DNA of 49,896 nucleotides from an uncultured Caulobacterales bacterium (GTDB lineage Bacteria > Pseudomonadota > Alphaproteobacteria > Caulobacterales > Maricaulaceae): NCBI GenBank assembly GCA_937965735.1, contig CALCKU010000036.1, positions 1-49,896 on the forward strand. The letters run 5' to 3'. A model generated the notes under the pieces. That model made no database searches. It saw only the letters and a program-made list of their open reading frames with translations, and had not been told where the DNA came from. Below, piece after piece: positions 8,166 to 40,331 of the stretch (within the stretch, counting starts at the first letter, position 1; the number at the start of each line of letters is the position of its first letter). The position numbers and the translations under genes were made by a program.

Positions 8166-8202
8166 AATTGAATCAACCAAACGTTAGACAGGGAGTAGAC
8201 TT

Positions 8203-9684
8203 ATGATTGGAAAATCAGCCCTCGCTTATATTCCCGTGAATTTAGCGAATATGCTTACAAGCTTTGGGACCATTATCATCCTGACGCGTCTCTTTTCAGG
8301 GGCAGAATTTGGCCTTTATGCTTTGGCGATGGTCACACTGCAATTCGTGCATATGGGACTTCTTACATGGCTCGAAGCGGCTATGGTACGGTTTCAAGCC
8401 CGCGCTGAAAAAAATGATGATGTCAACTCACACCTCAAAACTTTGTTTATCACAGCCTTGGTTACGTCACTGATTGGCATTAGTTTAATCTTAGGGGTTT
8501 TGCTTCTTTTGCCGTTACCCAACACGATGAAAATTGTGTTTCTTTTTGCGATTGGATCGTCTTGTATCACGATCTTCTTTAACCTCAGCATGGAAGCTCA
8601 TAAAGCAGCCCATAGAATCCGACGTTTTAGCACGATTTATACAGGACACTGTGTTTTAGCGTTTTCACTGGGTATTTTTCTTATCCTAGCCACGCCTTTA
8701 AGGGTCGAAGCCCCGTTTATTGGTCTCATTTTAGCCGGGATTGTATGTGTTGCCATTGATCTACCCTTTATGCTGAAGCGCATGAAAAACGGCGTCTTTG
8801 AGACTGAAAAGCTACAAACATACTTCAAATACGGGGCCCCTATGTGTATCTCGCTTCTCCTAACATATATATTGGCCGCTGCCGATATATATTTATTAGC
8901 GGGCTATATGGGCACAGAAGTTGCGGGCCAATATAATGCAGGTTATAACTTAGCCAATCGAACTCTAGAGACGGCTTTTGTCTGGCTGTCCATGGCTTTT
9001 ACACCAATTGCAATCACGGCCATGGAGAACAAGGGAGAAGCTGAATCGACTGTGATTTTAAATAATTACGCAGTAACGTTATTGTGGTTTGTTTTACCCG
9101 CCGCAACAGGCATAGCACTTGTTGCACCCGAAGCTGGGTTTATTCTGGGTGAATCCGTCCGAACAGAAGCGGTCAAAATCATGCCATGGATTGCCTTTTC
9201 CGCAGTCTTTAACGGGCTTATGAATTTTTACGCGCAACGCGCATTCATGCTATCTGGCAAGACAGGCATGTTTGTCTGGTGCATGTTACCGCCTGTTATC
9301 ATCAATATTAGTTTAAATATCCTATGGATCCCTATTTACGGAATGATGGGCGCAGTTTATGCAACCCTTGCTGCCTACGCGCTCGGTTTTGTTATTTCAG
9401 TGTGGGTCGGAAGAAAATATTATCCCCTCCCCTTACCCGTTATGGCCACTTTGAAAATTGGACTGGCCTGCCTGTCTATGGCGGTTTGCGTCCACTTTGT
9501 TCCTCTTTCAGATACATGGCCCGATTTTGTTAAGCTTGTCTTCAAGGCCACAATTGGCGGCGGTGTATATTTAATCGCAAGCCTGTTTTTTAACACATCA
9601 AACTGTCGTTCAATTTTGCAAGACAGTGTCGGGAAATATATTCAAGACAAGAAGATGTCGCATCAAGTGGTAGATACCCAATGA
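8203..9684 (+). CDS. polysaccharide flippase (MOP superfamily, Wzx/HfsF-like)
   Basis: The 493-aa protein has 12-14 hydrophobic segments along its whole length and begins with a typical flippase N-terminus (ALAYIPVNLANMLTSFGTII, then LTRLFSGAEFGLYALAM). Proteins of this type move lipid-linked repeat units across the inner membrane. It lies 37 bp after the initiating transferase and overlaps the next glycosyltransferase by 4 bp (ATGA), so it belongs to the same operon. It corresponds to HfsF if the locus makes holdfast. Confidence 0.88.
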   Translation: MIGKSALAYIPVNLANMLTSFGTIIILTRLFSGAEFGLYALAMVTLQFVHMGLLTWLEAAMVRFQARAEKNDDVNSHLKTLFITALVTSLIGISLILGVLLLLPLPNTMKIVFLFAIGSSCITIFFNLSMEAHKAAHRIRRFSTIYTGHCVLAFSLGIFLILATPLRVEAPFIGLILAGIVCVAIDLPFMLKRMKNGVFETEKLQTYFKYGAPMCISLLLTYILAAADIYLLAGYMGTEVAGQYNAGYNLANRTLETAFVWLSMAFTPIAITAMENKGEAESTVILNNYAVTLLWFVLPAATGIALVAPEAGFILGESVRTEAVKIMPWIAFSAVFNGLMNFYAQRAFMLSGKTGMFVWCMLPPVIINISLNILWIPIYGMMGAVYATLAAYALGFVISVWVGRKYYPLPLPVMATLKIGLACLSMAVCVHFVPLSDTWPDFVKLVFKATIGGGVYLIASLFFNTSNCRSILQDSVGKYIQDKKMSHQVVDTQ

Positions 9685-10778
9685 GAGAGCGAGCCGAAAA
9701 AACTGTGCCTATTGAAAAACATGTGAGTCCGAAAAATACGGCTCAAGCGAATATCAATCAAAACGCGCATGCGGAAACTTCCCGAACAGAAACTTCCAAA
9801 ACGGGCATGCCGATACCTGCGCTCTCGGTTCTGATCCCCTTTTACAATGACAACCCTAGCGAGTTAATAAAAGCACTCGCATTACAATCCGATCAGACCG
9901 TTGAGATTTTATTATATGATGACGGCACGGCGAACGCAGAGTTAACGCGACACGTAGAAGCGTGTATTGCGACGCTTGACAGCCCGCACCAAATAGCGAG
10001 CCAGACGACAAGTAAGACAGCTTTTAACCCAGATTTAAAGATGTCCCCGGCTATCTCTAAAGCTAAAATCACCTTGATGACTGCGCTTAAGAACAAAGGC
10101 CGTTCCGCCGCGCGCAACGCGCTACAAGCCCGCGCAAAAGCCGATTGGGTTTTATTCTTAGATGCAGATATGCGTCCACAAACGCCGCATTTCCTTAAAG
10201 ATTATCTCGGTCTAATCAAAGACGATACGGCCGATATAATTTTTGGCGGCTTTACCGTCTTAGAAACCTCTGAAACGCCAGAACAAGAATTACACCGCGC
10301 CCTCTCTGAAGTCTCCGATTGTTTGGATGCTAAGACCCGAGAGGACGCGGGGCCGCAATTTGTCGCCAGTTCGAACCTCTGCGTTCGCAAAACAGTCTTA
10401 GATTCTGAAAAGTTCGATGCTGGTTTTACGGGATGGGGGTGGGAAGATAGCGAATGGGCGGCGCGTGTCGCTCAAAAATACACGCTTAAACACGCCGACA
10501 TTCCCGCGATTCATCTCGGTTTAGAGACAACAGACACGCTTTTGAGCCGCTTCCGCGATAGCGCTCAAAACTACGTTCGTTTCACCAATAAACATCCCGA
10601 CTTGGCCCAAAAACTGACCTTATATAAAACGGCACAAAAGCTCAAAAAGATACCAGGTCAGCGCGTGATGCGCCCGCTATTAAAACAGCTTGTCTGTATC
10701 AATGCCGCGCCCATTAAGGCCCGTTTACTCGCGCTCAAACTCTGGCGGGCAAGCTGGTATGCGGAGGCTTTGCCGTGA
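9681..10778 (+). CDS. family 2 glycosyltransferase (A)
   Basis: This 365-aa enzyme has a GT-A fold N-terminal domain beginning near residue 49 (LSVLIPFYND), a DDG-type nucleotide-sugar site (LLYDDGT), a DxD-like FLDADMRP near 159, and a GWGWEDSEWAARV acceptor/catalytic motif near 250. Galactosyltransferase-like GT2 enzymes carry the last motif. The first 48 residues are a low-complexity tail rich in E, T and S with an internal near-repeat (AETSRTETSKTG), unusual for the family. It overlaps the flippase gene by 4 bp. It probably adds a sugar to the lipid-linked repeat unit. Which sugar cannot be told. Confidence 0.85.
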   Translation: MRERAEKTVPIEKHVSPKNTAQANINQNAHAETSRTETSKTGMPIPALSVLIPFYNDNPSELIKALALQSDQTVEILLYDDGTANAELTRHVEACIATLDSPHQIASQTTSKTAFNPDLKMSPAISKAKITLMTALKNKGRSAARNALQARAKADWVLFLDADMRPQTPHFLKDYLGLIKDDTADIIFGGFTVLETSETPEQELHRALSEVSDCLDAKTREDAGPQFVASSNLCVRKTVLDSEKFDAGFTGWGWEDSEWAARVAQKYTLKHADIPAIHLGLETTDTLLSRFRDSAQNYVRFTNKHPDLAQKLTLYKTAQKLKKIPGQRVMRPLLKQLVCINAAPIKARLLALKLWRASWYAEALP

Positions 10779-10885
10779 ACCGTTTTTTAAAAAAAAATCG
10801 TCCTGCAAATATTGTCTATATAAAAACTCAACACAGGCATACGCGCACCAATATACCAACCATAAACTTTGCTTAAGGTCTAACC

Positions 10886-11647
10886 ATGAATATCGTTTAT
10901 GAACCTTCCCGCACGCTTTCGTCTCGAATCAAAAGACGCATTGCCCCTTATCAAAAACAAAATAAAATCTCTGTGAAATTGGATCGCCCGATTGTCAGTT
11001 TTTCATTTGATGATTGCCCTTTATCTGCCATTGAGAACGGATTGCCTTTATTGGATGCGAAAGGGTGGCAAAGCACGGTCTATATTGCATGTGGCTTGTT
11101 TGATATAAACAATCACTTCGGCCTGCATATGGGTAAAAATGATGTACGGGCCGTTTTTAGAGCGGGGCATGAAATTGGCGACCATACATTTTCGCATTGT
11201 GATATTAGTGAGCGCTCTTTGTCAGACAGTCTCGCCGATATTCGTAAAAACCAAGCGGAATTAAACCGGCTGGATATACCCGAAAGTGAGACATTTGCTT
11301 ATCCCTACGGACAAGTAACACCGGCGTTAAAACGAGCATTACAAACTTATTTTTTAGGGGCACGTGGGATTAAACCAATTGTGCATAAAAAATCTGTGGA
11401 TTTGAACCAGATCGGTTCTATGCCTTTATTCAATGATAAACGTTTTGAGCAGTTATTAAACGCGATCTCAAGCCTAAAAAAAACGTCTGGATGGATGACT
11501 ATTTTTACCCATGATGTCACGGATAACCCAAGCGCTTGGGGCTGCACACCAGCGCAATTGCAGGCCGTAATCGAGGCCGTAGACCGTATTGACGCCGAAG
11601 TTATGCCCATAAGCGCTGCGATTAAAAAGTTGGAGACACAATCGTGA
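10886..11647 (+). CDS. NodB-type polysaccharide deacetylase (HfsH-like)
   Basis: The 253-aa protein has the carbohydrate esterase 4 motifs in order: SFSFDDCP near residues 37-44 (catalytic Asp and metal Asp), HEIGDHTFSH near 94-103 (metal His pair), AYPYG near 137, and FTHDV near 207. Family members remove N-acetyl groups from GlcNAc-containing polymers. There is no signal peptide, as in Caulobacter HfsH, which is of similar size (about 250 aa). The start has AAGG about 8 bases upstream. It overlaps the next gene as GTGA. In holdfast systems deacetylation is needed for adhesion and cohesion. Confidence 0.87.
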   Translation: MNIVYEPSRTLSSRIKRRIAPYQKQNKISVKLDRPIVSFSFDDCPLSAIENGLPLLDAKGWQSTVYIACGLFDINNHFGLHMGKNDVRAVFRAGHEIGDHTFSHCDISERSLSDSLADIRKNQAELNRLDIPESETFAYPYGQVTPALKRALQTYFLGARGIKPIVHKKSVDLNQIGSMPLFNDKRFEQLLNAISSLKKTSGWMTIFTHDVTDNPSAWGCTPAQLQAVIEAVDRIDAEVMPISAAIKKLETQS

Positions 11648-12633
11648 CCGCACATAGATTAAATCAAACCGAAAATACAGATTGGTCTCAAGGAATTTCT
11701 ATTATAATTCCAACATTTCGACGTCCAGACGGTATAAAAACCGCATTAAAAAGCGTAATATCGCAGAGCTCAAATGGTCATTTAATGGAAATTGTCGTTG
11801 CCGATAACGACCCCGATGCCAGCGCGCGCGATTATGTCGAAACTATGCAAGATCAAACGACGCTTCCCATACGATATGAACACGTTCCGATCCCAGGGGT
11901 TTCAAATGCCCGTAACGGCGCGTTAGACGTGGCAAGAGGCCGTTATATAATTTTCTTAGATGATGACATGGAAGCCACCGAAGGCTGGGTAGAGCGCTTC
12001 TTAGAGGTCGCAGAGACCTATAATGCTGGAATCGTCTTTTTACCTGCTGTCGCGGCTATGCCAAACCCTGAGGATCCTTTGAATACATATATGGCGCCGT
12101 TCTTCTCCCGGGTTTTTGATGCGCCAGAAGGCTTGGTTGATGAATGCTTAGGCACAGGGGGCTGTATGCTAGATTTAAATTTATGCCAAATGCCAAGCCC
12201 TGCTTTTGACCCCGCATTAAATGAAGTTGGCGGCGAGGATGATTTTTTGTTTAACTATTTAATGGCCACAGGTACAAAAGTTGCGTGGTCCCCCAATGCG
12301 CTTGCGTACGAACATGTCCCAGCCTCTCGCGCGACACCCGAATATTTATGGACCCGTAACTTTGCCTTTGGGCAAGGGCCAACGCAATCCTCTGCCGATA
12401 AAGGTCTACGCGGAACATTATCCGTTATTCGGTGGATGTTCATTGGGGTCATGCAACTGATCGTCTACGGTAGTCTCTTCCTGATCTTAAAAGCCCTTGG
12501 TCGCCCTTTGTTTATGAAATACATGGCCCGCACGGCGCAAGGTCTGGGTAAAATATTCTGGTGGGGGAACTTCACGCCGAAACTTTACGGAGCCGCCAGT
12601 TTAAACAAACAAAAAGCTGGCAAGACCGTTTAA
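11644..12633 (+). CDS. family 2 glycosyltransferase (B), HfsG-like candidate
   Basis: The 329-aa protein begins with a GT2 domain: SIIIPTFRRP near residues 18-27, VVADNDPDA near 52-60, FLDDDME (DxD) near 104, and GGEDDFLFNY near 195. A hydrophobic segment near 265-290 probably anchors it to the inner membrane. It starts at a GTG overlapping the stop of the deacetylase gene, so the two are translationally coupled. It is the last gene of the plus-strand operon and ends one base before the convergent polymerase gene. It or glycosyltransferase A could be the HfsG counterpart. Confidence 0.85.
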   Translation: MTAHRLNQTENTDWSQGISIIIPTFRRPDGIKTALKSVISQSSNGHLMEIVVADNDPDASARDYVETMQDQTTLPIRYEHVPIPGVSNARNGALDVARGRYIIFLDDDMEATEGWVERFLEVAETYNAGIVFLPAVAAMPNPEDPLNTYMAPFFSRVFDAPEGLVDECLGTGGCMLDLNLCQMPSPAFDPALNEVGGEDDFLFNYLMATGTKVAWSPNALAYEHVPASRATPEYLWTRNFAFGQGPTQSSADKGLRGTLSVIRWMFIGVMQLIVYGSLFLILKALGRPLFMKYMARTAQGLGKIFWWGNFTPKLYGAASLNKQKAGKTV

Positions 12634-12634
12634 T

Positions 12635-13945
12635 TTAGACATTCGGCAAGAAGTAGGCCGTTCGAACGCGATTACGCCAATAAGGGCGTTCAAATGCAAA
12701 AAGTTTGGCCGAGGTCATAACGAAAATCACCCAACTCAAATCATTTTGTTGCAAGATTGAACTCTCTGACATTGAGAGCATTAAATACATCACGGTCGAC
12801 AGAACAACCCAATAGGTTTCGACCCCGCCGCGTTTGATCCGGTCCACGGCTAATGCCAATGTCAAAATATATAATATCGCAAAGGCACCCACACCCAGTG
12901 CGCCGATTGACAGCCATGTTTCAATCCAGCCATTATGGGCGGATGGAATACCCCACTGCAATATCAAACGTGTATAATAGGACGGCCCAAGCGGATCTTG
13001 CCAGTAAACACCATAGCCATAGCCTAATAATGGTTTTTGCTGGATACTCACAATAAGCGCATTCCAAATATCGGTTCGACCCGTTAATGTGCGCTCTTTA
13101 CCGATAATCGCAAACATCTCATCTGGGATCGTTAGCATAAGCGTAGTAAAAATACCCGCACCCGCAAGAATAGACCACAAAAGCGGAATCCTCAAAATTG
13201 GGAAACGTCGAAATATTCGTAACAGAATAAACAAAATAATTGACGTCAATGAGATTAAGAGCGCGGTTTTTGACGTTGACATGATGACCAAGAATAAACA
13301 CAAAAACCCTGCTGGCACCCATATTTTACCGCGCGAGGGCATCATAGCAAAAGCACACATCATGAAAATAAGCCCACGGCTCATTTGTCCGCCTAAATAA
13401 TTTTTCTCAACCCAAAGCCCCCGCCATGCGCCGACATGGATTTCGTGCATAACACCTCGGGAAGGCAATAAAGCCGAATAGAAAAGCGAGGTGATAGCCA
13501 GAATTAAATAGGCTATTGCAAATCTTTGTATCAATTGATTCCAATCATAACGCGCCGCAAGAATAAGGCCAAACAATGTACTGATAGCAAGGGCCACAGA
13601 ACGCCGCATTGTCAACGCTGGATCGACCGACCAGAGCATACTGATCCCACACAACATCACACACAGTATCAATATCGGATTAAAAACAACAATCCGCACG
13701 AGTTGTGGAAAAATTCGCAAAGCGAGCAGAATAACCAATCCATAAGCTGGAAACCAAAGTGAACGCGCTAAGGAATTTTCTGCCGCCCCAACTTCAACGG
13801 GAGCCGGAAACAGAACCGTCATTATCGCCCCTGTAAAAAACAAAATACAGAAGAAATAGAGCCCGTGCTCAAAGGCCAGAAAGTAGCGTATAACGCTTCT
13901 ATCGCGCTGGCTCTCTTGGAGTGTATCTTGGCTATAAGTAACCAT
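12635..13945 (-). CDS. O-antigen ligase/Wzy-type polysaccharide polymerase (HfsC-like)
   Basis: The 436-aa product has about 11-12 hydrophobic segments and a large periplasmic loop in its second half (PLLGYGYGVYWQDP, then SAHNGWIETWLSIG). The loop with the HNGW motif is typical of Wzy_C/O-antigen ligase proteins. It should join lipid-linked repeat units in the periplasm. The gene is convergent with the glycosyltransferase operon and lies on the same strand as the co-polymerase gene. In Caulobacter the hfs cluster contains such polymerases (HfsC, HfsI). Confidence 0.85.
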   Translation of the reverse strand: MVTYSQDTLQESQRDRSVIRYFLAFEHGLYFFCILFFTGAIMTVLFPAPVEVGAAENSLARSLWFPAYGLVILLALRIFPQLVRIVVFNPILILCVMLCGISMLWSVDPALTMRRSVALAISTLFGLILAARYDWNQLIQRFAIAYLILAITSLFYSALLPSRGVMHEIHVGAWRGLWVEKNYLGGQMSRGLIFMMCAFAMMPSRGKIWVPAGFLCLFLVIMSTSKTALLISLTSIILFILLRIFRRFPILRIPLLWSILAGAGIFTTLMLTIPDEMFAIIGKERTLTGRTDIWNALIVSIQQKPLLGYGYGVYWQDPLGPSYYTRLILQWGIPSAHNGWIETWLSIGALGVGAFAILYILTLALAVDRIKRGGVETYWVVLSTVMYLMLSMSESSILQQNDLSWVIFVMTSAKLFAFERPYWRNRVRTAYFLPNV

Positions 13946-13988
13946 TAGCGACTAAGACGACCTCTTCTTTTAAGGACATGGCCCCTTG

Positions 13989-14012
13989 ACCCTAATCTGG
14001 ACCCTAATCTGG
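13989..14012. repeat. 2 x 12-bp tandem repeat
   Basis: The unit ACCCTAATCTGG occurs twice back to back in the 189-bp gap between the polymerase and co-polymerase genes. Function is unknown; it resembles the other short tandem duplications of this window. Confidence 0.8.
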
Positions 14013-14134
14013 ACAAATGAATACAGTCAAATTCAGATTTCTGGTAATCGCCTAGAACATATGACATTAAAAAGTGTATCCAATGAAGTTTTCTAATTAT
14101 GAGTGAAACTCACGAAAGCGGTAAAACTTTTGCA

Positions 14135-16234
14135 TTACCCATCTTCGTTTGAAGGCAAATAGCCTGAATTTTGTAATGGATTAGGATAAGCTACGCCTTG
14201 CCCATTGTTTTGCATAGTTTCAGCCGCTGTAGAGGCGGGGTCTAAATAAGGATTATACTCGGCGTTTGTATTCTGTACTGCGTTATAATCATAAGCGGCG
14301 TTCCCGTCAGTTTGCGGCGCATGGTTTGAGGCTGAATTCGGGGGGGTGCCATCATTTTGCGTTCTTGTTTCATAGGCCAAAGTCGAGGTATTTAGCGCCT
14401 CGTTTACATAGGTTTGTGCAGAATAAGTTGAGTCTGAATAAGGCTGGCTTGTCTGCATATTAAACTGGGCTTGATTCGTTCCGTATGCATGATCATGGCG
14501 CGCAACATCAAAACCAGAAGATTCTTGAAAACCAGAAGATTCTGGGTGCGTCGCATTATAATGCGCATAAGTGGGTACAGACGCCGCAACCGAGTTGGCG
14601 ACCGGCATATTCGCAGATCCTGGCACTTGTTGAGGCACAGGGTTAGATGTTGGCACGCTCCCAGGTCTGTATTCGGTAACGGCTTCAGGAATATAATCAC
14701 TTCGTCGTCTTTGTATGACGCGCGGCGTCTCAGTGCCGCCTGATGCAGAAGTCGCATATAAACGTGGATCTAAGAAGACCCGTAATAAACCCAACATAAA
14801 GACGGTGAAGCCCCAAGCGACAAAGGCTACAGCAAACATAATCATACGCATATTGCGACCCTTTCGCGGAAGATCAGATATGCTAATAACCCGCACGTTT
14901 TCACTATCGGCTTGCGCTTGCTGTTGGTTGATGAGCGCTTCTTGTTCTTTGGTTGTGTAATTTCTTAAACGTGTGTCCAATGTGCCGCGTTCGCGTAAAA
15001 GATTATCATAAGTCGGCTGTAATCGCGTCAGTTTTTTAACTTTTGCATCTGCCGCGTTTAATTGTCGTTGCAACGTAAACTCTCTTTCTCGAAAGCTATC
15101 GGCGGTCGCTTGAAGGGTGTTCCGGCGCGTCAAAAGTCCTTGATATACCGTGTTCGGCCCAACGCGGCGTCCACCTGATGCTTGACCCGCTCCAGTGGAT
15201 GAAACCGTTTTCAAAAGACGCAATTCCTCACGTTTTTGGCGCACAGGATTACTATTGGGAAGATATTTTGCCAAAAGTTGTTGAAGTTCCAATTCAGTTT
15301 GTGCCACGCGTTGTGACGCACGGTCATCAACAAATAAGTTAATTTGCTCTGGAGTGTTCCGTAATTGTGTTTCCACCGTGACCAAAGCCGTTTCGGTTTC
15401 TGACATATTGGCCCGCAGTAAATTAAGTGCGGCGCGCAATTCTTCCGTTCGTTCTTGCGCACCCGTCTGTTCAGACGTAAAATCAGAGATACGATTATCA
15501 CGTAGAAATTTTTGAATGGCCGCCTCGTTGGAATCTAATTGCACCTCTGTTGCAACACGGCGTTCCGTTATTATATCGCTAGAGCCTTCAACGAAAATAT
15601 CTTTTCGTGCATCCATATAAGCATTGATAAAAAGGTTCATACCTCTGACGGCAATATCAGGGTCTTCATGCTTAAAGACGAGATCAACAATTGAAGACTT
15701 AGGCTTGGGGACGACAACATAACGCGTATCAATGAATTTATATAAATCCACAATCGCATTCTTTTTGGCGATCGGGTCATTGCCAGAGCTCTTAATCTTT
15801 TCGTATTGAGCTTTCGCAAGACGCCTCTCACCAAATTCATCGCGAAGCTCACCCGTGACGCGGGCAATAATATCTGTATTTTTCATCAAACCAATTTCGT
15901 TTAGAACGATATGGTCAGGCGTTAACATCAAACCCGAGGATTGGGCATTATTCGTCACAGACTCGTAAACATATTCACTGCCAAGTTGAACAAGAATACG
16001 GCCTTCCCCTGCATAAGTGCGTTTAATATTTTTGGTTCCAAACCAAGCAAAAGCGGTTCCGATGATAAGCATCGGAATCATCCATGTGAGTTGTCTGCCA
16101 AAGGACTTAAACATTTCGCCAATGCGGATTGTTGGCATTCCATTCGCATAATCCCCAACCGTCAAGTCCATTGGACTAGGCTGAGATCGGGCGCTGGCCC
16201 CATCATTGATTGGTTTGTGACCATATTGGGTCAT
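14135..16234 (-). CDS. Wzz/PCP-type polysaccharide co-polymerase without kinase domain (HfsA-like)
   Basis: The 699-aa protein has a Wzz domain with a first membrane helix near residues 51-67, a long periplasmic coiled-coil region (about 240-430) and a second membrane helix near 460-482. Such proteins control chain length and link polymerase with the Wza channel. Instead of a BY-kinase domain, it carries about 200 C-terminal residues of low-complexity sequence rich in N, Q, S, T, Y and P. That tail contains a QESSGF repeat encoded by an 18-bp duplication near 14511. The start ATG has AAGGA 6 bases upstream. It is divergent from the export gene, 119 bp away. Confidence 0.87.
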   Translation of the reverse strand: MTQYGHKPINDGASARSQPSPMDLTVGDYANGMPTIRIGEMFKSFGRQLTWMIPMLIIGTAFAWFGTKNIKRTYAGEGRILVQLGSEYVYESVTNNAQSSGLMLTPDHIVLNEIGLMKNTDIIARVTGELRDEFGERRLAKAQYEKIKSSGNDPIAKKNAIVDLYKFIDTRYVVVPKPKSSIVDLVFKHEDPDIAVRGMNLFINAYMDARKDIFVEGSSDIITERRVATEVQLDSNEAAIQKFLRDNRISDFTSEQTGAQERTEELRAALNLLRANMSETETALVTVETQLRNTPEQINLFVDDRASQRVAQTELELQQLLAKYLPNSNPVRQKREELRLLKTVSSTGAGQASGGRRVGPNTVYQGLLTRRNTLQATADSFREREFTLQRQLNAADAKVKKLTRLQPTYDNLLRERGTLDTRLRNYTTKEQEALINQQQAQADSENVRVISISDLPRKGRNMRMIMFAVAFVAWGFTVFMLGLLRVFLDPRLYATSASGGTETPRVIQRRRSDYIPEAVTEYRPGSVPTSNPVPQQVPGSANMPVANSVAASVPTYAHYNATHPESSGFQESSGFDVARHDHAYGTNQAQFNMQTSQPYSDSTYSAQTYVNEALNTSTLAYETRTQNDGTPPNSASNHAPQTDGNAAYDYNAVQNTNAEYNPYLDPASTAAETMQNNGQGVAYPNPLQNSGYLPSNEDG
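14511..14546 (-). repeat. 18-bp tandem duplication in the co-polymerase tail
   Basis: Two adjacent 18-bp units (AAACCAGAAGATTCT plus three variable bases, plus strand) encode QESSGF twice in the disordered tail. The second unit differs only in its last three bases. Confidence 0.75.
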
Positions 16235-16353
16235 GTATATTCCTTAAAAAACGAATCGTTAACGCAGTGGACTTTGTAAATTTTAATTTTTCGTTATCCA
16301 TTCTTGTTAAGAGTTGGGAAACGTTAATTTTTTGCACTAAAAGAAGATATTTT

Positions 16354-17475
16354 ATGAAAACAATGGCTCAAAACCCAATTTTCCGCAGTATTATGGGGGT
16401 TTGGGTGGCGTCATTAGCCCTCCATACCGAGGCAAATGCGCAATATTACCCTGCAAAAACGAATCACTTTGCGCAGTCTTCACCGGCTTATCCGTCCCCT
16501 TTAGGCGTAAATACGGGCGTCATGTACGGCTATCCGCCGATGAATATGGTTAACTCGCCGATGAATATGGTTAACTCGCCCATGAATGTTAACAGAATTT
16601 ACCCGCAAAACTTGCAACATATTTCTGCACACCACAGCGTGCCAAGCGCTCAATATGGTCTTCAATACGGCCCTCAACAGGGAATGCCCCGCCCAGTTAA
16701 TCGCGGTTATAATCATCGCAGATATAAAAGACCTGGACTGTTCAGCTGGTTAAGCGGGCGCAAGCCCCTCGCGCGGCAAATTCCAGCCCCTCATCCAGGA
16801 CCACAAAACATGTTCCAACGCTGGGTAGAATATGAACCCCAATACAAATTTTATCCAGGAGATCAGCTTGATATTGTCGTAGCCACCGCACCAGAACTCT
16901 CACGAACCTTGACCATTGGCCCAGACGGTCGTGTCTCTATGCCATTAGTGGAGCCTATCATGGCAGCAGGTCGCCCGCTTCAGCACATTCAAAATAGTAT
17001 GCGCGCGGAACTCGCAAAACAATTGGTTGACCCCGCCGTAACTGTGACACCACGGGCCTTTGCGCCTGCACAAGTCTATGTCGGCGGCGAAGTAAACGCG
17101 CAAGGCACTTATACATTACCAGGCCCTCTCGGCGCGCTGGAAGCGATTATTATGGCAGGCGGTATGAACGCTTCAGCCAAATCTAGTAATATAGCTGTTT
17201 TAAGACGGGCGCCCAATGGCGGTATGATGATGCGAACTGTGAACATACGCAATGGCATGCGCAATATTCGCGAATATAATGATAATATGCAATTACGTCG
17301 GGGTGATATAGTTTTCGTGCCACGGACGACACTCGCCGAAGTTGGTGTTTTTGTTCAAGCCTTACGCGCAGCTTTGCCAGTTGACGTCAATGTCAGTTAT
17401 AACATTGGCAATAATGGCGGAGGGACGGACCCATCCATCACAAATAATGGAACCGGAACCACGATTACGCCGTAA
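16354..17475 (+). CDS. Wza-type outer-membrane polysaccharide export protein (HfsD-like)
   Basis: The ATG at 16354 gives a 373-aa precursor with a cleavable signal peptide (FRSIMGVWVASLALHTEANA); a longer frame from 16210 is not supported. After a Y/N/P-rich linker, the poly_export domain starts near residue 164 (YKFYPGDQLDIVVATAPELS, GPDGRVSMPLVEPI). It is followed by an SLBB segment (VYVGGEVNAQGTYTLPGPLG). The family forms the outer-membrane channel for capsule, exopolysaccharide or holdfast. No lipobox cysteine is obvious. The linker has an in-frame 21-bp repeat. It is transcribed away from the co-polymerase gene. Confidence 0.88.
   Translation: MKTMAQNPIFRSIMGVWVASLALHTEANAQYYPAKTNHFAQSSPAYPSPLGVNTGVMYGYPPMNMVNSPMNMVNSPMNVNRIYPQNLQHISAHHSVPSAQYGLQYGPQQGMPRPVNRGYNHRRYKRPGLFSWLSGRKPLARQIPAPHPGPQNMFQRWVEYEPQYKFYPGDQLDIVVATAPELSRTLTIGPDGRVSMPLVEPIMAAGRPLQHIQNSMRAELAKQLVDPAVTVTPRAFAPAQVYVGGEVNAQGTYTLPGPLGALEAIIMAGGMNASAKSSNIAVLRRAPNGGMMMRTVNIRNGMRNIREYNDNMQLRRGDIVFVPRTTLAEVGVFVQALRAALPVDVNVSYNIGNNGGGTDPSITNNGTGTTITP
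16537..16578 (+). repeat. 2 x 21-bp tandem repeat in the export gene
   Basis: Two perfect copies of a 21-bp unit (16537-16557, 16558-16578) and a partial third encode PMNMVNS repeats in the linker before the export domain. Confidence 0.85.
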
Positions 17476-20080: not shown

Positions 20081-21148
20081 ATGAATACGAATAAGGTCGC
20101 ATTAATTTCAGGTGTAACAGGACAAGACGGCGCTTATTTGGCCCGTCTACTGTTAGACAAGGGCTACCGCGTACACGGCATTAAACGCCGTGCCTCAAGT
20201 TTTAACTCAGCTCGAATTGAGGACATTTATCAAGACCCGCATGAAGACGATCCACGCTTCACATTGCATTACGGCGACATGACAGACTCAACCAATCTAA
20301 TTCGCATTATACAAGAAACACAACCTGATGAGATTTATAATCTTGCCGCTCAAAGCCACGTTATGGTCAGTTTTGAAACCCCTGAATATACCGCCAATTC
20401 GGACGCACTCGGTACACTGCGAATGCTAGAGGCCATTCGTATTTTGGGCCTTGAGAAAAAAACCAAATTCTACCAAGCTTCGACTTCTGAGCTTTATGGA
20501 TTGGTACAAGAAGTCCCACAAAGCGAGACAACGCCTTTTTATCCACGCTCCCCTTACGCGGCGGCTAAACTTTACGCCTATTGGATAGTGGTCAATTACC
20601 GCGAAGCCTATGGTATACATGCTTCAAACGGCATTCTCTTCAACCATGAAAGTCCTTTACGCGGCGAAACATTTGTTACGCGAAAAATTACCCGCGCGGC
20701 AGCGGCCATTAAGCTCGGCCAGCAAGATAAATTATTTCTTGGCAATCTCGACGCGCAACGTGATTGGGGTCATGCCCGCGAATATGTCGAAGGCATGTGG
20801 CGTATGATGCAACAAGAGACATCAGATGATTATGTTTTAGCGACAGGCGTTACAACGCGCGTCCGCACCTTTGTAGAATGGTGTTTTGAAGAGATTGGGA
20901 TTACTCTCATTTGGCGCGGCGAAGGCGTGGATGAGAAAGGGTATTGCTCTGAAACTGACCGGCTTTTGGTCGAGGTCGATAGTCGCTATTTCCGTCCAAC
21001 AGAGGTCGAGCTTTTACTCGGCGACCCAACAAAAGCAAAAACCGTCTTGGGTTGGACACATAACACATCTGCCAAAGACCTTGCGATTGAAATGGTACAA
21101 TCTGATTTAAAAATTATGAGTGATCTTGCGGCAGCGAAAGCGATTTAA
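20081..21148 (+). CDS. gmd: GDP-mannose 4,6-dehydratase
   Basis: The 355-aa enzyme converts GDP-mannose to GDP-4-keto-6-deoxymannose, the first step to GDP-L-fucose and related sugars. It is an extended SDR with the NAD(P) motif [15 protein letters not shown] at residues 9-23, the Gmd-typical [23 protein letters not shown], and the catalytic YxxxK in [12 protein letters not shown]. It also has [20 protein letters not shown]. Length is normal for the family. The next gene starts immediately after its stop codon, forming a two-gene operon. It could supply deoxy-sugars to the nearby polysaccharide locus. Confidence 0.96.
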
Positions 21149-22078
21149 ATGTTTCACCTAGCGGGTAAGAAAATATATGTGGCAGGTCATGGCGGCATGG
21201 TCGGCAGTGCCGTTGTTAGAAAACTGAAAGCGGAATCCTGTGACATTATCACAGCATCGCGGCATGATGTTGATTTAACCCGTCAAGATCACGTTACCAA
21301 ATTCTTGCAAGACACACGGCCTGACGCTGTCATCATGGCGGCAGCAAAAGTTGGCGGCATCCTTGCTAATCAGACCTATCCCGTGGATTTTTTATATAAT
21401 AATCTGATAATGCAATCCAATGTCACACAGGCCGCTCATGCGGCTGGGGTTCAGAGGCTTCTATTTTTAGGGTCGAGCTGTATTTATCCTAAACTGGCCC
21501 AACAGCCGATTGAAGAAAGTGCGCTCCTGACAGGGCCTTTAGAGCCGACAAACGAGTGGTATGCAATTGCAAAAATTGCGGGCATTAAACTCGCCGAAGC
21601 CTACCGCAAGCAATATGGTGTCGATTATATTTCCGCTATGCCAACAAATTTATATGGACAAGGCGATAATTTTGATTTGCAATCCAGTCACGTCTTGCCC
21701 GCCCTTATTCGTAAAGCCCATGACGCCAAAAAAGCAGGCCATGATACGATTACAATTTGGGGAACCGGTAAAGTTCGACGTGAGTTTTTACATGCGGATG
21801 ATTGCGCCTCTGCTTTAGTTTTCTTGCTCAAACATTATTCGGAAGACCAACACATTAATGTTGGATCGGGATCTGACATCACGATCCTAGAACTCACCCA
21901 ACTGATATGCGACATTGTCGGATTTAAAGGCGGGATTGAACACGATCTTTCCAAACCGGATGGTACGCCGCGCAAACTCATGTCATCAAAAAAGCTTGAA
22001 AGCCTCGGCTGGACACCCTCCATTCATTTAGAAGCAGGTATAAAAGCCACTTATGAATGGTATCTCAGCCAAGAATGA
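21149..22078 (+). CDS. fcl: GDP-L-fucose synthase
   Basis: The 309-aa epimerase/reductase turns GDP-4-keto-6-deoxymannose into GDP-L-fucose. Visible features are the N-terminal nucleotide motif GHGGMVGSAVVR, the family signature LFLGSSCIYPKLAQQPIEES, and the catalytic YxxxK in NEWYAIAKIAG. MPTNLYGQGDNFD and RREFLHADDCA follow. It begins at the base after the gmd stop, so the two genes are co-translated. Together they commit mannose to fucose for glycan synthesis. Confidence 0.95.
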   Translation: MFHLAGKKIYVAGHGGMVGSAVVRKLKAESCDIITASRHDVDLTRQDHVTKFLQDTRPDAVIMAAAKVGGILANQTYPVDFLYNNLIMQSNVTQAAHAAGVQRLLFLGSSCIYPKLAQQPIEESALLTGPLEPTNEWYAIAKIAGIKLAEAYRKQYGVDYISAMPTNLYGQGDNFDLQSSHVLPALIRKAHDAKKAGHDTITIWGTGKVRREFLHADDCASALVFLLKHYSEDQHINVGSGSDITILELTQLICDIVGFKGGIEHDLSKPDGTPRKLMSSKKLESLGWTPSIHLEAGIKATYEWYLSQE

Positions 22079-22209: not shown

Positions 22210-23133
22210 ATGTTACGTCGATTGCGACATTCCAATATTTTAAAATATGCGAGCATAGCCAGTCTAATTTCAGCCAGTTTTATTTATGGCGTCTCTGTCG
22301 GGGCGTATAAAGTTTTTCCTTATAACCTTCTAAAAAACGCAAAAGCAAAAATCACTGGCTCTGAACCCCTACCCTTACACAAGCGCTTAAAGTGTGAAAT
22401 TCCACAGGTTCAAAACGTGTCTCCAGACAGTGTCGTTATCGTCGGTCACGCCTATAGCGGCAGTCAAGACTTTATCAACCCATCTCTAGAACGTTTTTTA
22501 AAAACACAGTCCAAAAATATTGATCATGTATTTTTTACTGGCGATGTCTTGGGGCGCCCCAGCCAATCAAAATGGGAAAATTTGAAAGCGTTTTTTACTA
22601 CGGAAAGTTTAGATTTCTCCATTATCCCCGGAAATCATGATGTTGGATTTGGCGATAATGCCCTTAGAGATATATTCACTTCACAATTCGAATTTTCTCA
22701 TATGAAACCGATAACATTCAGGGCCGCAGACGCCACATTTATACTTGAAGACAGTACGCTCTTGGACGGAAAACTTAGCCAAGAGTCGATTTCAACCTTG
22801 AACCAAAATTATGACGGTGAACACAAACTTATTCTTTTACGCCACCATATCCCTGTTACAGAACTGCTCTATTCTGCCAACCGATTGAGTGGGTATGCCG
22901 ATGACCTGCATGCTATCGTAGAATTAGAACGTCAAATCACGCAAAATCTTACAATTATTGCAGGTGACGGTGGACAAAATTCCAAATTATCTGGATCAGA
23001 GTGCGCACAATTCGGTAAGATAAAAATTATTGTTAACGGTCTTGGTAATGTCGCGCGCGATGAGGTTTTAATCATCCATTCGGGTCAAATTGGACGCTAT
23101 AAAATCGGACAAAACAGAAAAGCGAGCGATTAA
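22210..23133 (+). CDS. calcineurin-like metallophosphoesterase-related protein
   Basis: The 307-aa product has an N-terminal membrane anchor or signal (ASIASLISASFIYGVSVGAY). It then has a metallophosphoesterase-like domain: FFTGDVLGRP, IIPGNHDVGFGD and LLRHHIP. The usual first motif DxH is replaced by VGHAYSG, and the last GHxH motif reads AGDGG, so the two-metal site is incomplete. It may be catalytically altered or have a different substrate. The gene is convergent with the VTC-CotH operon, overlapping its end by 4 bp, and might act on the same phosphate polymer. That link is inference. Confidence 0.7.
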   Translation: MLRRLRHSNILKYASIASLISASFIYGVSVGAYKVFPYNLLKNAKAKITGSEPLPLHKRLKCEIPQVQNVSPDSVVIVGHAYSGSQDFINPSLERFLKTQSKNIDHVFFTGDVLGRPSQSKWENLKAFFTTESLDFSIIPGNHDVGFGDNALRDIFTSQFEFSHMKPITFRAADATFILEDSTLLDGKLSQESISTLNQNYDGEHKLILLRHHIPVTELLYSANRLSGYADDLHAIVELERQITQNLTIIAGDGGQNSKLSGSECAQFGKIKIIVNGLGNVARDEVLIIHSGQIGRYKIGQNRKASD

Positions 23134-23723
23134 ACCGATAGGTCAAAAGACAAATAAGCCCTTGCATATTTTGAAAAGCGAGAAGCGGGTGTCGGTATCA
23201 AATCCGCTAACAGATCATCATCGGTTTCATACGGCACTTTGATTTCCACAACTTCTTCAAAATCTTTGACTTCACGTAATGATCGACTGTCTTGATAAAA
23301 AATTTCAGAATCAAACGTGATCCGATGCCCGTCCAACATAAAATAAGCGCGCCTGTAACTTATAACAACAGACGGCATGACATGCCCGTATAGATTATCC
23401 ATATAACCCTCACGGCAAATTCTTGCAAAATCATCCAAACGGATCGGGCGACTCGTCTTAAACCGCCCTTCGATTGAGGAAACTTTTTCTTCCCATGCAA
23501 GCTTGGAACGGTCTTGATTATACCAACGCGTTCGTATTTTCTTTCGCGGCAAGCTGCCTTCCTCTGAATCATGAAACGCTTTATCATCCCGTGCATCAAA
23601 ATACTGGCTTGTGATAAGACGATCTGGGTAGAGGGGTTTCATACCGCGCCCAAACAACTCCGACTTTAAGGCTTGCGCGTCATAATGGCTTAGACGGAAT
23701 TTGCGCTCTTTACGGAAACTCAC
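23130..23723 (-). CDS. VTC-domain protein (polyphosphate polymerase-like)
   Basis: A GTG at 23723 overlapping the upstream stop (GTGA) starts a 197-aa protein (SFRKERKFRLS); a longer frame to 23780 lies inside the upstream gene. The VTC tunnel-fold residues are visible in order: RKERKF, YFDARDDKAFHD, KIRTRWYN, LAWEEKVSS, SYRRAYF, RITFDSEIFY, VVEIKVPYE and SRFSKYA. In yeast Vtc4 this domain makes polyphosphate from ATP. Bacterial members form operons with CotH and DUF4956 proteins, as here, and their product is not established. No membrane segment is present, so it probably works on the inner face of the membrane with DUF4956. Confidence 0.85.
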   Translation of the reverse strand: MSFRKERKFRLSHYDAQALKSELFGRGMKPLYPDRLITSQYFDARDDKAFHDSEEGSLPRKKIRTRWYNQDRSKLAWEEKVSSIEGRFKTSRPIRLDDFARICREGYMDNLYGHVMPSVVISYRRAYFMLDGHRITFDSEIFYQDSRSLREVKDFEEVVEIKVPYETDDDLLADLIPTPASRFSKYARAYLSFDLSV

Positions 23724-25999
23724 GGGGTGGTTCCCAAAACAAGTAAGGACTGGGAATCTTTTATCGTTTTTCCGTCGCAAGAGGGATGTTTTATCTGAAG
23801 TGTACCACCCCCATATTCTTGTTTTTTACGAAATGTCTCAAAACAAATCTCAACGGCTTTGCCGTTAAAGTCTTGAACTGTCGTAACAGAGGAATCCTTA
23901 GACGATATCGCGATCAAAGCCGTATCAACGTGAATGGATTTTGCGTCAAAGATCGAGTTTTCACCAACAGAGACCCCCTTATCACCACACCCCTTAGCCC
24001 TTACATCCCCAATATCATAGCGACCACCGCTTACATCCAAACAGTCATTACCTGTATTATCAACCCAAATTGCGTCAATATGAATATCCGCAAAGTCAAT
24101 ATCAATCGCGTCAGAGAAGCCGTTTTGTACTTTTAATAGGTCAATCTGGCCCGTTGAAGACACAACATTAATGCTGTCCTCGCAGCCGCCCTCTTTGGCC
24201 AGAACAGAGGTTTTTGAAAATTGGCTTTTGTAAAAATTCACACATCCTGTCAGACCGTAACGATTAAACCTTTGCGCGCCCGCTGATAGTGGTGTCGCGG
24301 GCAAGCCTTCAAATTTAATCGTCCAACCTGTTAAATCCGTGCCCGAAAATAAAATCCAATCATCAGGACTCTTTTGACCTAATGTGACAAGCATTGCATC
24401 AGAGTCTATTGCGACTTGCGCGCCAGATGCATGAATAATTTCACCGCCTGAAAAAACTTGAGACGGGTAAGAAACACCGCCACTGGCTTCCTCCTGAGGG
24501 AGCAAAATCGTCCGCATTTTCTCAAATTTAAGATCGCCAAGTAATTTTGCAACATCGCCGCGGCCAAGCGCTATTGCAGAGGATGAGGCGGATTCCAAGT
24601 CAAGGCTTACGTCTTTGGCTTCATAGTCTTTAAACAAAAACCGACCCGATTGATTTTGAACTTCGGTAAAGTATCTGGCTTCAACACCATGCCCCTCAGA
24701 AGCCTTTATGAACCGCTGAAACAATTCTTTTGAACTCGGGTGTTTAAATTTAGGTCCCGTATTGATGTCGCGACTTGCTAAGCGCACATTCATTTTTTCA
24801 GCAGTCTTTAAAATCACGCTCAACGTTTCAGTAATGAACGCATCAGTGCCTCGAAAGTCAGCGCCAAGTCGCAGGGTCACATTTTTATAAAAATCGGAAT
24901 CTTTTTTTAATTCAGTCAATTTATTTATAATTTGGCTTATATAATCTGCATCGGCATGGTTAAGATAATAATCCAATTCAGGGTCTGAAAAACCACGGGC
25001 CCCAGACCGCGCGGGCGAAATATTCCCATCATAATAGATCGGTTCATAGGCTTGTAAGAAACTGTTGAAATAAAATTTCCTGTTATGGGGCTGTAGGGCA
25101 TGCCCTGCCCCCATAATATGCAATAATAAAGCGTAATGACTAAATACAGGAGAATCAGGATTAAGGCGAATTACACTGTTGAAAGCAGAGCCGTTATAGC
25201 CGTTTAAAAGATAACCTTTTTGTACACCCCTATACGCATCTAGGGCGATACGGGTCGATGTGTCCCCTTTTTCAGCCCATTTATCATTGACCAATTTCGT
25301 CAAGGATACATCTTTTAAATTGGTCGTGTATTTTTGATGATCCCAAATTAACGTTTCGTCCCCTTGGAACATGGGCCCTTCACGCCTTAAATTACGCTCC
25401 AATAATTCCTTTGCCGCTTTTTCTTGAAACAAAAACTGACCTTCGACACCGTTTATATCCCCCGAGACCATAAAGGTTTCTGGGGATATAAAGCCGAAAG
25501 CTTGGATCAATTGAGTGCCCATCACTTCAAATTCAGAATTGCGGGTCTCAGGCAGAAGCAGTTTAAACCGAACTGCATTTAAAATGTTACCTGCTTTAAG
25601 TTTCACATCCAAACTGGCAATAATTTGCCCCGTCCGATTAAAAGAGATATGATCTTTCCAGTCCCCGTTCTGACGCACACGCGCAGGGTAAGTACAGGTG
25701 CCAAAAGGATAAGAGACTGTAAGTGTCGCTTGTAGTCTATCTTTATATTTTTCTAAAATATTCCGATTAGGATTTGTAATGATTTTGAGGCCATTTGTTA
25801 CCCATTTTCGACTATTGTGAATTTTGACAGAAATATGTTCAACCGCACTCGGGTCTTGCAAGCCATCTCTATATTCCGCCGTTGAGAAATCACAGTCTGC
25901 AAAGGCGAGTGGAGCCCATGAAACGCTCACCAAACCAAGCATTCCGCCGAGCATATTTCGGCGTAAGGATCGAATGAAGGACGCTTTACGATCTGTCAT
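23720..25999 (-). CDS. CotH-kinase-like protein with C-terminal beta-helix, exported
   Basis: The ATG at 25999 lies 4 bases after the upstream stop and gives a clean signal peptide (MLGGMLGLVSVSWAPLAFAD); the frame extends further to 26047 without support. The 759-aa protein has a CotH-like region: ARVRQNGDWKDHI, INGVEGQFLFQEKAAKELL, and NRKFYFNSFLQ followed by YEPIYYDGN. The C-terminal third reads as a right-handed beta-helix (SDAIDIDFADIHIDAIWVDN, GNDCLDVSGG). CotH proteins are atypical protein kinases of the spore coat. Here the substrate is unknown and the conserved DW of the first catalytic motif is not evident. It is coupled to DUF4956 upstream and VTC downstream. Confidence 0.78.
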   Translation of the reverse strand: MTDRKASFIRSLRRNMLGGMLGLVSVSWAPLAFADCDFSTAEYRDGLQDPSAVEHISVKIHNSRKWVTNGLKIITNPNRNILEKYKDRLQATLTVSYPFGTCTYPARVRQNGDWKDHISFNRTGQIIASLDVKLKAGNILNAVRFKLLLPETRNSEFEVMGTQLIQAFGFISPETFMVSGDINGVEGQFLFQEKAAKELLERNLRREGPMFQGDETLIWDHQKYTTNLKDVSLTKLVNDKWAEKGDTSTRIALDAYRGVQKGYLLNGYNGSAFNSVIRLNPDSPVFSHYALLLHIMGAGHALQPHNRKFYFNSFLQAYEPIYYDGNISPARSGARGFSDPELDYYLNHADADYISQIINKLTELKKDSDFYKNVTLRLGADFRGTDAFITETLSVILKTAEKMNVRLASRDINTGPKFKHPSSKELFQRFIKASEGHGVEARYFTEVQNQSGRFLFKDYEAKDVSLDLESASSSAIALGRGDVAKLLGDLKFEKMRTILLPQEEASGGVSYPSQVFSGGEIIHASGAQVAIDSDAMLVTLGQKSPDDWILFSGTDLTGWTIKFEGLPATPLSAGAQRFNRYGLTGCVNFYKSQFSKTSVLAKEGGCEDSINVVSSTGQIDLLKVQNGFSDAIDIDFADIHIDAIWVDNTGNDCLDVSGGRYDIGDVRAKGCGDKGVSVGENSIFDAKSIHVDTALIAISSKDSSVTTVQDFNGKAVEICFETFRKKQEYGGGTLQIKHPSCDGKTIKDSQSLLVLGTTP

Positions 26000-26003
26000 A
26001 GAC

Positions 26004-26693
26004 TTACCGATTGAGACGTTTACTCGAAACCGTCGATAGTTCGGCAATTTGATCAGAAATAATCACGAGATCAGAAAATTTTGTCGCGGCCAAAATATAT
26101 TGGAAACCCTCTGCATTCTGCGTTTCAGAGAGTAAAAAATCACTGCTATGTAACGTCTTAATCGATGCGCTCGCTTTCACTTCCAAAGTACTCATTTGAT
26201 TGCCTTCACTAAAAGAGGCCTGAAACAAAGGTTTGGAAAAGACCGTTTTTGAAACCCATGTTAAGATCGCTAAAACGAGCAAAGCTAGGCTGAGTGAAAG
26301 CACTAAGAATATCAACCATTTCGGCGATACGGACGTCGCAATGCCCATTGTGATGCTAGCAAAATAAACAGAGAGTTCAAAGGGTGATTTGACTGGATTA
26401 CGAAACCGAACAATTGAAAGCGCTCCGACCATACCCAAAGATAGCGCGATGTTCCCTGAGATAACCTTGGTAATCACAAAAGTAATAATCGGTAAAAATA
26501 TCAAGGTTGCCGTATGCGAAAATGTACCAATCCATTTTTGCCCCATAGCCAATAATATAAAACGCATGCTCAGCGACATGAATATTAAAAGCACGATTGA
26601 GAGCATATCTAATCGAAATGGCATCATATGACCGAGTAATATATCTAACACGTCACTATCCTTGAATTGATAATATCCGACAAGCGGACACAT
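26004..26693 (-). CDS. DUF4956 membrane protein
   Basis: The 229-aa protein has about four membrane helices followed by a soluble C-terminal domain. The stretch GNIALSLGMVGALSIVRFRN and PVKSPFELSVYF is the DUF4956 hallmark. It is the first gene of the operon with CotH-like and VTC genes (gaps 4 bp and overlap 4 bp). The ATG at 26693 has no ribosome site; a GTG at 26651 preceded by AAGGA is an equally good start and would shorten it by 14 residues. DUF4956 may form the membrane part of a polymer synthase or exporter with VTC, which is inference. Confidence 0.82.
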   Translation of the reverse strand: MCPLVGYYQFKDSDVLDILLGHMMPFRLDMLSIVLLIFMSLSMRFILLAMGQKWIGTFSHTATLIFLPIITFVITKVISGNIALSLGMVGALSIVRFRNPVKSPFELSVYFASITMGIATSVSPKWLIFLVLSLSLALLVLAILTWVSKTVFSKPLFQASFSEGNQMSTLEVKASASIKTLHSSDFLLSETQNAEGFQYILAATKFSDLVIISDQIAELSTVSSKRLNR

Positions 26694-32469: not shown

Positions 32470-32620
32470 AATCCAGTTGAAGCGTTTCAGACCACACGAA
32501 TTAGACCGAACGGATCACAATATGATAGACAGAAATCAAATCCTAAAGAATGCCCCTAACCCCAAGCCCCCCATTCATGGAACGGAACCTTTGGCTTTAG
32601 CGACAAATGAAGACTCGATT

Positions 32621-33619
32621 ATGGACCGTAGACGTTTTGGTGGGCTGATGTTAGGCGGTTCACTCGCCGTGTCAGCGTGCTCAAATAAAGCCTTATCATC
32701 AAAACGCGTTCTCTATTCAACGGACTCATTGCCCAATGGCTACCCAACGGTGGAGGCCGTTCGCGCAATGGGGACGTTTTTGCATGAAAAAACGAATGGG
32801 CGGCTGGGTGTAAAAATTTATCCAGGCGGGCAGTTGGGCTCGGAAGGCAGTACACTAGAAATTGCCATGTTTGGCGGTCTTGACATGACCCGAACCTTTA
32901 GTGCCGCCCTGAATAATATCGCGCCATTGACCAAGCTGTTTAGTTTGCCCTTCCTTTTTCGTTCGACCGAGCATCAGCGCAATGTTGCCGACGGGGACAT
33001 TGGAAATACAATTTTAGAATCGCTAGAAGCTTTTGGTCTGCGCGGATTAGCGATTTATGATACGGGCGGTCGTGGATTTTATACGACAGAGACCCCTATT
33101 CCGCATCCATCGGCCTTAAAAGGTCAAAAGATCAGAGTGCCAAACTCTGACATTTTCTTAGCCACGATGCGGGCTTTGGGGGCCAATCCAACCCCGATGA
33201 ATTTCAGTGAAGTCTATCAAGGGCTCGTTCAAAATGTTATTGATGGTGCCGAGAATAACTGGCCAAGCTATATCAGCACGCGCCATTATGAAGTGGCGCC
33301 CTTTTATTCAGAGACAGGGCATTTTAGAACTCCGGACATTCTGATTATGAGCTTGAGAACGTGGAATAGTTTTTCAAAAGAAGATCAGGATTTAATTATG
33401 GAGGCCGCCCGCCACTCTGTTGGCGTCATGCGAAGCCTTTGGGACGCGCGGGTTGATGTTTCCAAAAAAACGCTCATTGAACATGGCGGAAGCATTCTGA
33501 CAGACATAGACAGCGCTCCGTTTCGGGCGTTGATGGAACCTGTCTATAAACAATTCGTCACGCCTGAACTTAAGCCGTTTCTGACAAGAATTGACCGTAT
33601 TGCGGAGCAAGGGACATGA
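32621..33619 (+). CDS. dctP: TRAP transporter substrate-binding protein
   Basis: The ATG at 32621 gives a 332-aa precursor with a lipoprotein-like signal (MDRRRFGGLMLGGSLAVSAC, with cysteine after LAVSA). Earlier in-frame starts at 32522 or 32399 would place the signal internally. DctP features are clear: LPNGYPTVEAVRAMGTF, the substrate-gripping arginine in GQKIRVPNSDIFLATMRALG, and NPTPMNFSEVYQGLVQNVID. It captures acidic sugars or carboxylates in the periplasm. It overlaps the small permease gene by 4 bp. In this locus, unsaturated uronate monomers or KDG are the likely ligand (inference). Confidence 0.92.
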   Translation: MDRRRFGGLMLGGSLAVSACSNKALSSKRVLYSTDSLPNGYPTVEAVRAMGTFLHEKTNGRLGVKIYPGGQLGSEGSTLEIAMFGGLDMTRTFSAALNNIAPLTKLFSLPFLFRSTEHQRNVADGDIGNTILESLEAFGLRGLAIYDTGGRGFYTTETPIPHPSALKGQKIRVPNSDIFLATMRALGANPTPMNFSEVYQGLVQNVIDGAENNWPSYISTRHYEVAPFYSETGHFRTPDILIMSLRTWNSFSKEDQDLIMEAARHSVGVMRSLWDARVDVSKKTLIEHGGSILTDIDSAPFRALMEPVYKQFVTPELKPFLTRIDRIAEQGT

Positions 33620-35396: not shown

Positions 35397-35404
35397 CTCG
35401 ACTC

Positions 35405-35439
35405 AAAAAACCCACCTCGCCTCGCGAAGTGGGTTTTTT
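35405..35439. terminator. bidirectional terminator between convergent operons
   Basis: AAAAAACCCAC pairs with GTGGGTTTTTT around a short GC-rich inner stem, with A and T runs on both sides. It lies 9 bases after dctM and about 80 bases beyond the 3' end of the minus-strand kduD gene, so it may stop transcription from both sides. Confidence 0.88.
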
Positions 35440-35519
35440 AAACGATAACTAGGTTGAGGCCTTTTCTCACGTATTTTCTGATGTGTATTGAGCGGGGTTA
35501 AATCTTAACCCTCAAAAGC

Positions 35520-40329: not shown

Positions 40330-40331
40330 GC

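Follow-up and report, generated by a model that had tools for sequence, protein, structure and literature searches.

A recurrent DUF4956, CotH-fold/beta-helix and VTC gene module beside an exopolysaccharide locus of an uncultured Caulobacterales bacterium: a candidate phosphate-polymer system

Our analyses of a 49,896-nucleotide stretch of DNA from an uncultured Caulobacterales bacterium (contig CALCKU010000036.1; referred to here, at its full length, as the window) have identified a three-gene module, encoding a DUF4956 membrane protein, a putatively exported CotH-fold/beta-helix protein and a VTC-domain protein, that is real and widespread. The association of these genes is partly known already from Gram-positive bacteria, where the trio forms accessory genes of Pel clusters (PMC7112168) and a C. 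perfringens locus carries VTC and CotH genes together (PMC2879425). New in the present work are the mapping of the VTC protein onto yeast Vtc4, a histidine (His300) at an essential CotH position, a residue ladder on the beta-helix, the MgtC-like and ACT-like character of the DUF4956 protein, the horizontal movement of the module, its location in a non-Pel glycan locus and the presence of phosphatase relatives beside it. The explanation that we place first, tentatively and with somewhat less than even confidence, is that VTC and DUF4956 form a membrane unit producing polyphosphate, which would serve a CotH/beta-helix protein that handles glycan in the periplasm.

The three genes are located on the minus strand in the order DUF4956 (26004..26693; PF16316), CotH-fold/beta-helix (23720..25999; 759 aa; structure match to 5jd9 and hhalign match to CotH) and VTC (23130..23723; 197 aa, GTG start; PF09359). 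The ATG of the CotH-like gene (25999) starts 4 bp after the DUF4956 stop, and a GTGA is shared between the GTG start of the VTC gene and the CotH stop (23720). A metallophosphoesterase-like gene on the plus strand (22210..23133; PF00149), a possible fourth component, converges on the trio, with its stop overlapping the VTC stop by 4 bp (23130-23133). An earlier, sequence-only reading of the window had described both the single operon with these junctions and the convergent overlap, and the coordinates agree with it on each count. It had further stated that VTC, CotH and DUF4956 genes recur together in bacteria and had proposed a neighborhood survey; the survey made here reveals a real recurring module.

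For this survey, DUF4956 alone was used as the query against 84,980 genomes, yielding at least 586 confirmed stretches, of which the best 80 were taken. Among these best 80 of at least 586 loci, VTC is present in 72 and CotH of either type in 44. Fifty of the best 80 extend for at least 3 kb on both sides, and VTC is found within 1.5 kb and on the same strand in 42 of these 50, and past an intervening CotH gene in a further 5. The complete trio is also present in 19 of 20 SAR11 regions, the remaining one being cut by a contig end, vs. 0 of 20 control regions taken from those genomes; because the SAR11 regions were chosen by CotH, what is tested here is whether DUF4956 and VTC accompany it. The association greatly exceeds chance and extends across many phyla, which supports the polymer model, and the notion that the neighborhood is an accident of assembly or of chance is contradicted by the surveys and retains a negligible probability. 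The authors of a 2025 study of Streptococcus intermedius reported no synteny of the trio outside the Pel locus (PMC12345266); contrary to that report, the loci examined here show such synteny. Gene order or spacing varies in a few loci (L138, L141, L143, L151, and L152). In two rearranged SAR11 trios (L138:7628-11143 and L141:2286-6293), the CotH gene of one is convergent to DUF4956-VTC and the VTC gene of the other precedes CotH. A Kordiimonadaceae contig (L076:35-12399) carries three CotH/beta-helix, three VTC and two DUF4956 genes in about 12 kb.

The CotH protein with a beta-helix is carried by 28 of 247 SAR11-order genomes (about one in ten), and two Prochlorococcus records carry the module. 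The window CotH protein groups with the SAR11 sequences, the two Prochlorococcus records and a G939 copy (7 rows, 100/100) to the exclusion of four copies from its own family, and hence horizontal acquisition is indicated and vertical inheritance within the host family was rejected. Carriage by viruses was likewise set aside, no confirmed relative having been found on viral contigs. A role in anti-phage defence was rejected on the basis of PADLOC, which gave no model match for the trio and only weak partial matches for the phosphatase. In the literature searched, no paper was found that describes the trio in SAR11 or Prochlorococcus.

The VTC protein matches PF09359 with an E value of about 6.4e-21 to 8.7e-21 (75.4 bits, curated cut-off 23), and 23 of its columns are invariant among 30 relatives. 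Alignment to solved structures shows that 17 positions of yeast Vtc4 between R196 and K458 (viz. R196, K200, Y241, D243, R264, R266, E279, K281, K294, Y359, R361, R373, D377, E426, K428, S457, and K458) are matched by type in the window protein and are invariant or nearly so in the 30 relatives. K458 is catalytic in yeast Vtc4 (PMC4641920). The earlier statement that the charged tunnel residues all look intact is supported, and the correspondence with Vtc4 supports the polymerase reading. A tripolyphosphatase possesses glutamates at sites where the polymerase has basic residues (PMC4641920), and at those discriminating sites, whose placement is by register and inferred, the window protein has the basic residues R4 and K162 and the acidic residue E6. 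The last of these is an invariant acidic-patch Glu typical of triphosphatases, within a start that reads RxExK, and it counts against the polymer model. Together with the tunnel fold common to VTC proteins and triphosphatases, it could indicate that VTC acts as a triphosphatase or tripolyphosphatase, removing a by-product on behalf of the glycan locus, with DUF4956 serving only as its anchor; we regard this as very unlikely, given the invariant polymerase Lys and the basic R4 and K162 at sites that in triphosphatases are occupied by Glu. The residues thus favor a predicted cytosolic polyphosphate polymerase, in keeping with the polymer model.

The host genome also encodes PPK1 and PPK2, and VTC is therefore not needed for bulk polyphosphate, a point that weighs against the polymer model. 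VTC is rare among the relatives of the host, being found in 5 of 137 genomes of its family and 7 of 387 of its class. In L185 and L187, the VTC frames are 480-485 aa long and suggested a fusion of DUF4956 to VTC, which was rejected because their N-terminal parts, which are read-through of another frame, do not match DUF4956. The earlier proposal that VTC makes a polymer at the membrane with DUF4956 is supported in respect of the residues and the neighborhoods, while the joint action of the two proteins is something that we infer, no gene fusion having been found. In a marine copy that is close to the window copy (L189:5551-8594; also L180 and L181), the VTC match is split in two, which may reflect a frameshift or an assembly error.

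The DUF4956 protein matches PF16316 with an E value of 2.5e-8 (34.3 bits, cut-off 30.6). Conservation identifies as its family signature the motif VGALSIVRFR (residues 89-98; 26400..26429, minus strand), in which V89, G90, A91, S93, I94, V95, R96, and R98 are invariant in 44 relatives. Its predicted model consists of helices spanning residues 23-152 followed by a C-terminal ferredoxin-like fold with ACT/Lrp-like matches; all 44 relatives match PF16316, 9 of the 44 also match MgtC (PF02308), weakly, and one an ACT domain. As modelled, the protein combines an MgtC-like bundle of membrane helices with an ACT-like domain at its C-terminus, and the S. intermedius authors give this same layout for SIR_1592 (PMC12345266). 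The membrane helices and the ACT-like C-terminus are shared with the MgtC family members that carry such a domain, from which the window protein differs in matching only DUF4956 and in its operon context. DUF4956 and VTC also occur together without CotH, with two loci adjoining a PHO4 phosphate transporter, which is in favor of the polymer model. These two loci (L018:7023-10012 and L020:8621-11772) have the order of a shorter DUF4956-like gene without VGALSIVRFR, then VTC, then PHO4, and thereby show, within a single family of the Alphaproteobacteria, a second way in which VTC is arranged. PHO4 was considered as a constant partner and discarded, since it is seen only in L018 and L020.

The CotH-like protein has no Pfam match even at E<=10, so that PF08757 is not matched by the window protein itself and its assignment to CotH had to be tested. 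Relatives at the same operon position do match PF08757 (L019, 7.8e-18; L086, 4.9e-22; L075, 3.3e-11), profile-profile comparison to classical CotH by hhalign gave 97.7% (E=2.2e-12), and the structure predicted from 25 sequences (pLDDT 85, pTM 0.86) has as its top PDB match the CotH protein of B. cereus (5jd9/5jda; E=1.8e-9 for 5jd9). The homologues, the profile comparison and the predicted fold together establish that the protein has a genuine CotH fold, and the beta-helix that the sequence-only reading had placed on it is also present in the predicted structure. A putative signal peptide comprises residues 1-34, ending AFA before DC as read from the sequence (25898..25999, minus strand), and the CotH-fold half, delimited by the model and the profile alignment, comprises about residues 52-450 (24650..25846, minus strand).

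Within this half, profile alignment places His300 at the essential Asp228 of CotH (B. subtilis numbering), a column that is His in 39 of 45 relatives and Asp in none of the 45; Asp324 aligns to the catalytic Asp251 and is kept in 40 of 45. The substitution D228Q inactivates B. subtilis CotH (PMC7821199). Among the Gram-positive CotH proteins found next to DUF4956-VTC, both catalytic Asp residues are retained in 10 of 10 readable sequences, and thus the window protein and its relatives, of which none of 45 has Asp at position 228, form a distinct, altered branch. The earlier reading had CotH transferring phosphate to an exported partner; in a kinase model of this kind, CotH would be an active extracytoplasmic kinase that phosphorylates a protein or glycan of the surface, with ATP or exported polyphosphate as the donor. 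The CotH fold, the retention of Asp324 at the Asp251 position and the intact Gram-positive homologues speak for this model; His300, the inactivating effect of D228Q and the stronger conservation of the beta-helix than of the kinase-like half speak against it, and we judge it decidedly unlikely. In its simple form, the claim that CotH transfers phosphate is not supported: simple kinase activity of the window protein is doubtful from its residues, and because Asp228 is replaced by His, a role in binding or in some altered chemistry is more probable for this half than that of a classical protein kinase. The protein shares with the Bacillus CotH spore-coat kinase (5jd9) its fold and Asp251, and differs from it in His300, in the added beta-helix and in its putative export by a Gram-negative non-spore-former.

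The most conserved region of the protein, above the kinase-like half, is the C-terminal right-handed beta-helix (about residues 513-755, from strands in the model; 23735..24463, minus strand), which bears an Asp/Lys/Glu ladder running from D608 to K725. Identity in 43 of 45 relatives is seen at each of 14 ladder positions (viz. D608, D630, D633, D635, D652, D655, D673, K674, S677, G679, E680, K701, D702, and K725), whose motifs read CEDxxN, DAxDxDF, GNDxxDxS, GDKxxSVGE, SKDxS, and KKxEYG. The ladder may form an active site or a site for a metal or ligand, and its conservation is a further point for the polymer model. Membership of GH28 was rejected, the matches being weak (2 of 19, best 4e-4), as was membership of PL3/pectate lyases (weak, 2 of 19, best 0.029). 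In the same test, the best E value of the beta-helix against the PDB was 0.023, and hhalign of the beta-helix to two GH28 proteins gave values near zero from alignments that were shallow. A genome search with PF03211 gave no match anywhere, controls included, and so is not informative on this point. A version of the module in which an altered kinase-like domain is joined to a strongly conserved beta-helix appears to be undescribed.

The convergent gene at 22210 matches PF00149 with an E value of 1.9e-5 (25.6 bits, cut-off 21.5). Its alignment contains GD and GNHD, the first DxH and the last GHxH not being evident, and it encodes a putative metallophosphoesterase of divergent type with an N-terminal hydrophobic stretch. 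Relatives occur in three other fetched loci only (L145, L026, and L100), in each of which they directly adjoin the trio; this supports the polymer model, and the phosphatase may belong to the module, the adjacency being no more than suggestive, since these loci had themselves been selected by the trio or by DUF4956. A phosphatase search of the SAR11 order gave one strong match, which is a training sequence and thus provides no independent support.

The window trio is situated at the end of a Wzx/Wzy-type exopolysaccharide locus (6414..17475), whose genes encode a sugar transferase, a flippase, two GT2 proteins, a deacetylase, Wzy_C and a Wza-like export protein, together with GDP-mannose dehydratase and epimerase genes of GDP-fucose type (20081..22078, plus strand) that lie outside the module. 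None of the named neighbors is a Pel gene (pelDEADAFG contiguity), the flanks being the Wzx/Wzy-type locus and a TonB receptor. Near the SAR11 copies, the leading families, counted per family, include GT2 with 10 of 140 genes, epimerase with 10 and GT1 with 4, and no glycan family is present among the 25 commonest families of the control genes. Housekeeping genes are also common near the SAR11 copies and several copies sit among them, which counts against the polymer model; the glycan neighbors in the window and near the SAR11 copies count for it. The suggested link with cell-surface glycan is sustained by these neighborhoods and by the published connection to Pel; the earlier interpretation as a whole is supported in respect of the module, the VTC tunnel and the glycan link, and is not supported in respect of CotH simply transferring phosphate. 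The region 30760-45823 adjoining the trio resembles a polyuronate (alginate-type) utilisation locus, with a TRAP transporter, an SDR, a sugar kinase, an aldolase, two lyase-like proteins and a GntR-type regulator (gene 30760 Pfam-checked, the rest read from sequence). Transposase-like reading frames at 4020-4917, lying in two overlapping frames, may represent a frameshifted IS3-type element.

The earlier statement that the trio has no established function needs qualifying, because deletion phenotypes exist in S. intermedius: loss of SIR_1592 (DUF4956) raised Pel and loss of SIR_1594 (CotH) lowered it, aggregation being reduced in both, and no such change was reported for loss of SIR_1593 (VTC) (PMC12345266). 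The altered Pel levels are in favor of the polymer model; the lack of a reported VTC effect and the opposite directions of the Pel shifts are against it, as a simple linear pathway would lead one to expect otherwise. The main rival is a regulatory role, in which VTC and the ACT domain of DUF4956 would sense a nucleotide or phosphate state in the cytosol and, via the exported CotH/beta-helix protein, set the amount of surface polysaccharide that is produced or retained, no polymer being exported. It is favored by the ACT-like domain and by the opposite effects of two deletions in which Pel is still made, and we consider it possible but on the whole unlikely, since the fully conserved VTC tunnel with its catalytic Lys suggests turnover rather than sensing.

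In the polymer model, cytosolic VTC would, as predicted from its residues, move the gamma-phosphates of ATP into polyphosphate or a short phosphate chain. DUF4956, with its ACT-like domain probably in the cytosol, would dock and control VTC and possibly carry the chain through the membrane, in the way that the membrane part of yeast VTC does. The exported CotH half might then bind a phosphate-bearing ligand, the Asp/Lys ladder of the beta-helix would hold or work on an exported glycan, and the polymer would modify or stabilise the coat; where present, the exported phosphoesterase may trim or recycle phosphate. The window proteins resemble the yeast VTC complex in that a membrane protein accompanies a VTC catalytic domain in which every mapped tunnel residue is present, and differ from it in lacking an SPX domain and a fusion to the membrane part, and in that their DUF4956 protein is MgtC-like, with a putative channel role. 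The Pel accessory operon (SIR_1592-1594; PMC12345266) likewise has the cotH-PPP-DUF4956 gene set in one operon adjoining polysaccharide genes; unlike it, the window has a Wzx/Wzy-type locus and no Pel genes, and its CotH protein has a beta-helix instead of FN3 and His for Asp228.

The survey separates a beta-helix branch in which a catalytic Asp has been lost and an invariant ladder kept, and it shows that the module also occurs away from Pel clusters, contrary to the 2025 authors. Named residues, viz. K185 of VTC, H300 and D324 of CotH and D652, D673, and K674 of the ladder, make the question of its function directly testable. A bolder form of the proposal, to which we assign a low probability, is a dedicated machine that exports the polyphosphate of VTC-DUF4956 and, via the CotH-fold/beta-helix protein, couples it to surface polysaccharide or retains it there, giving about one in ten SAR11-order genomes and some Prochlorococcus a phosphate-polymer coat apart from PPK polyphosphate. 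If the module does make exported polyphosphate, some of the most abundant cells in the ocean would bear a PPK-independent phosphate polymer at their surface.
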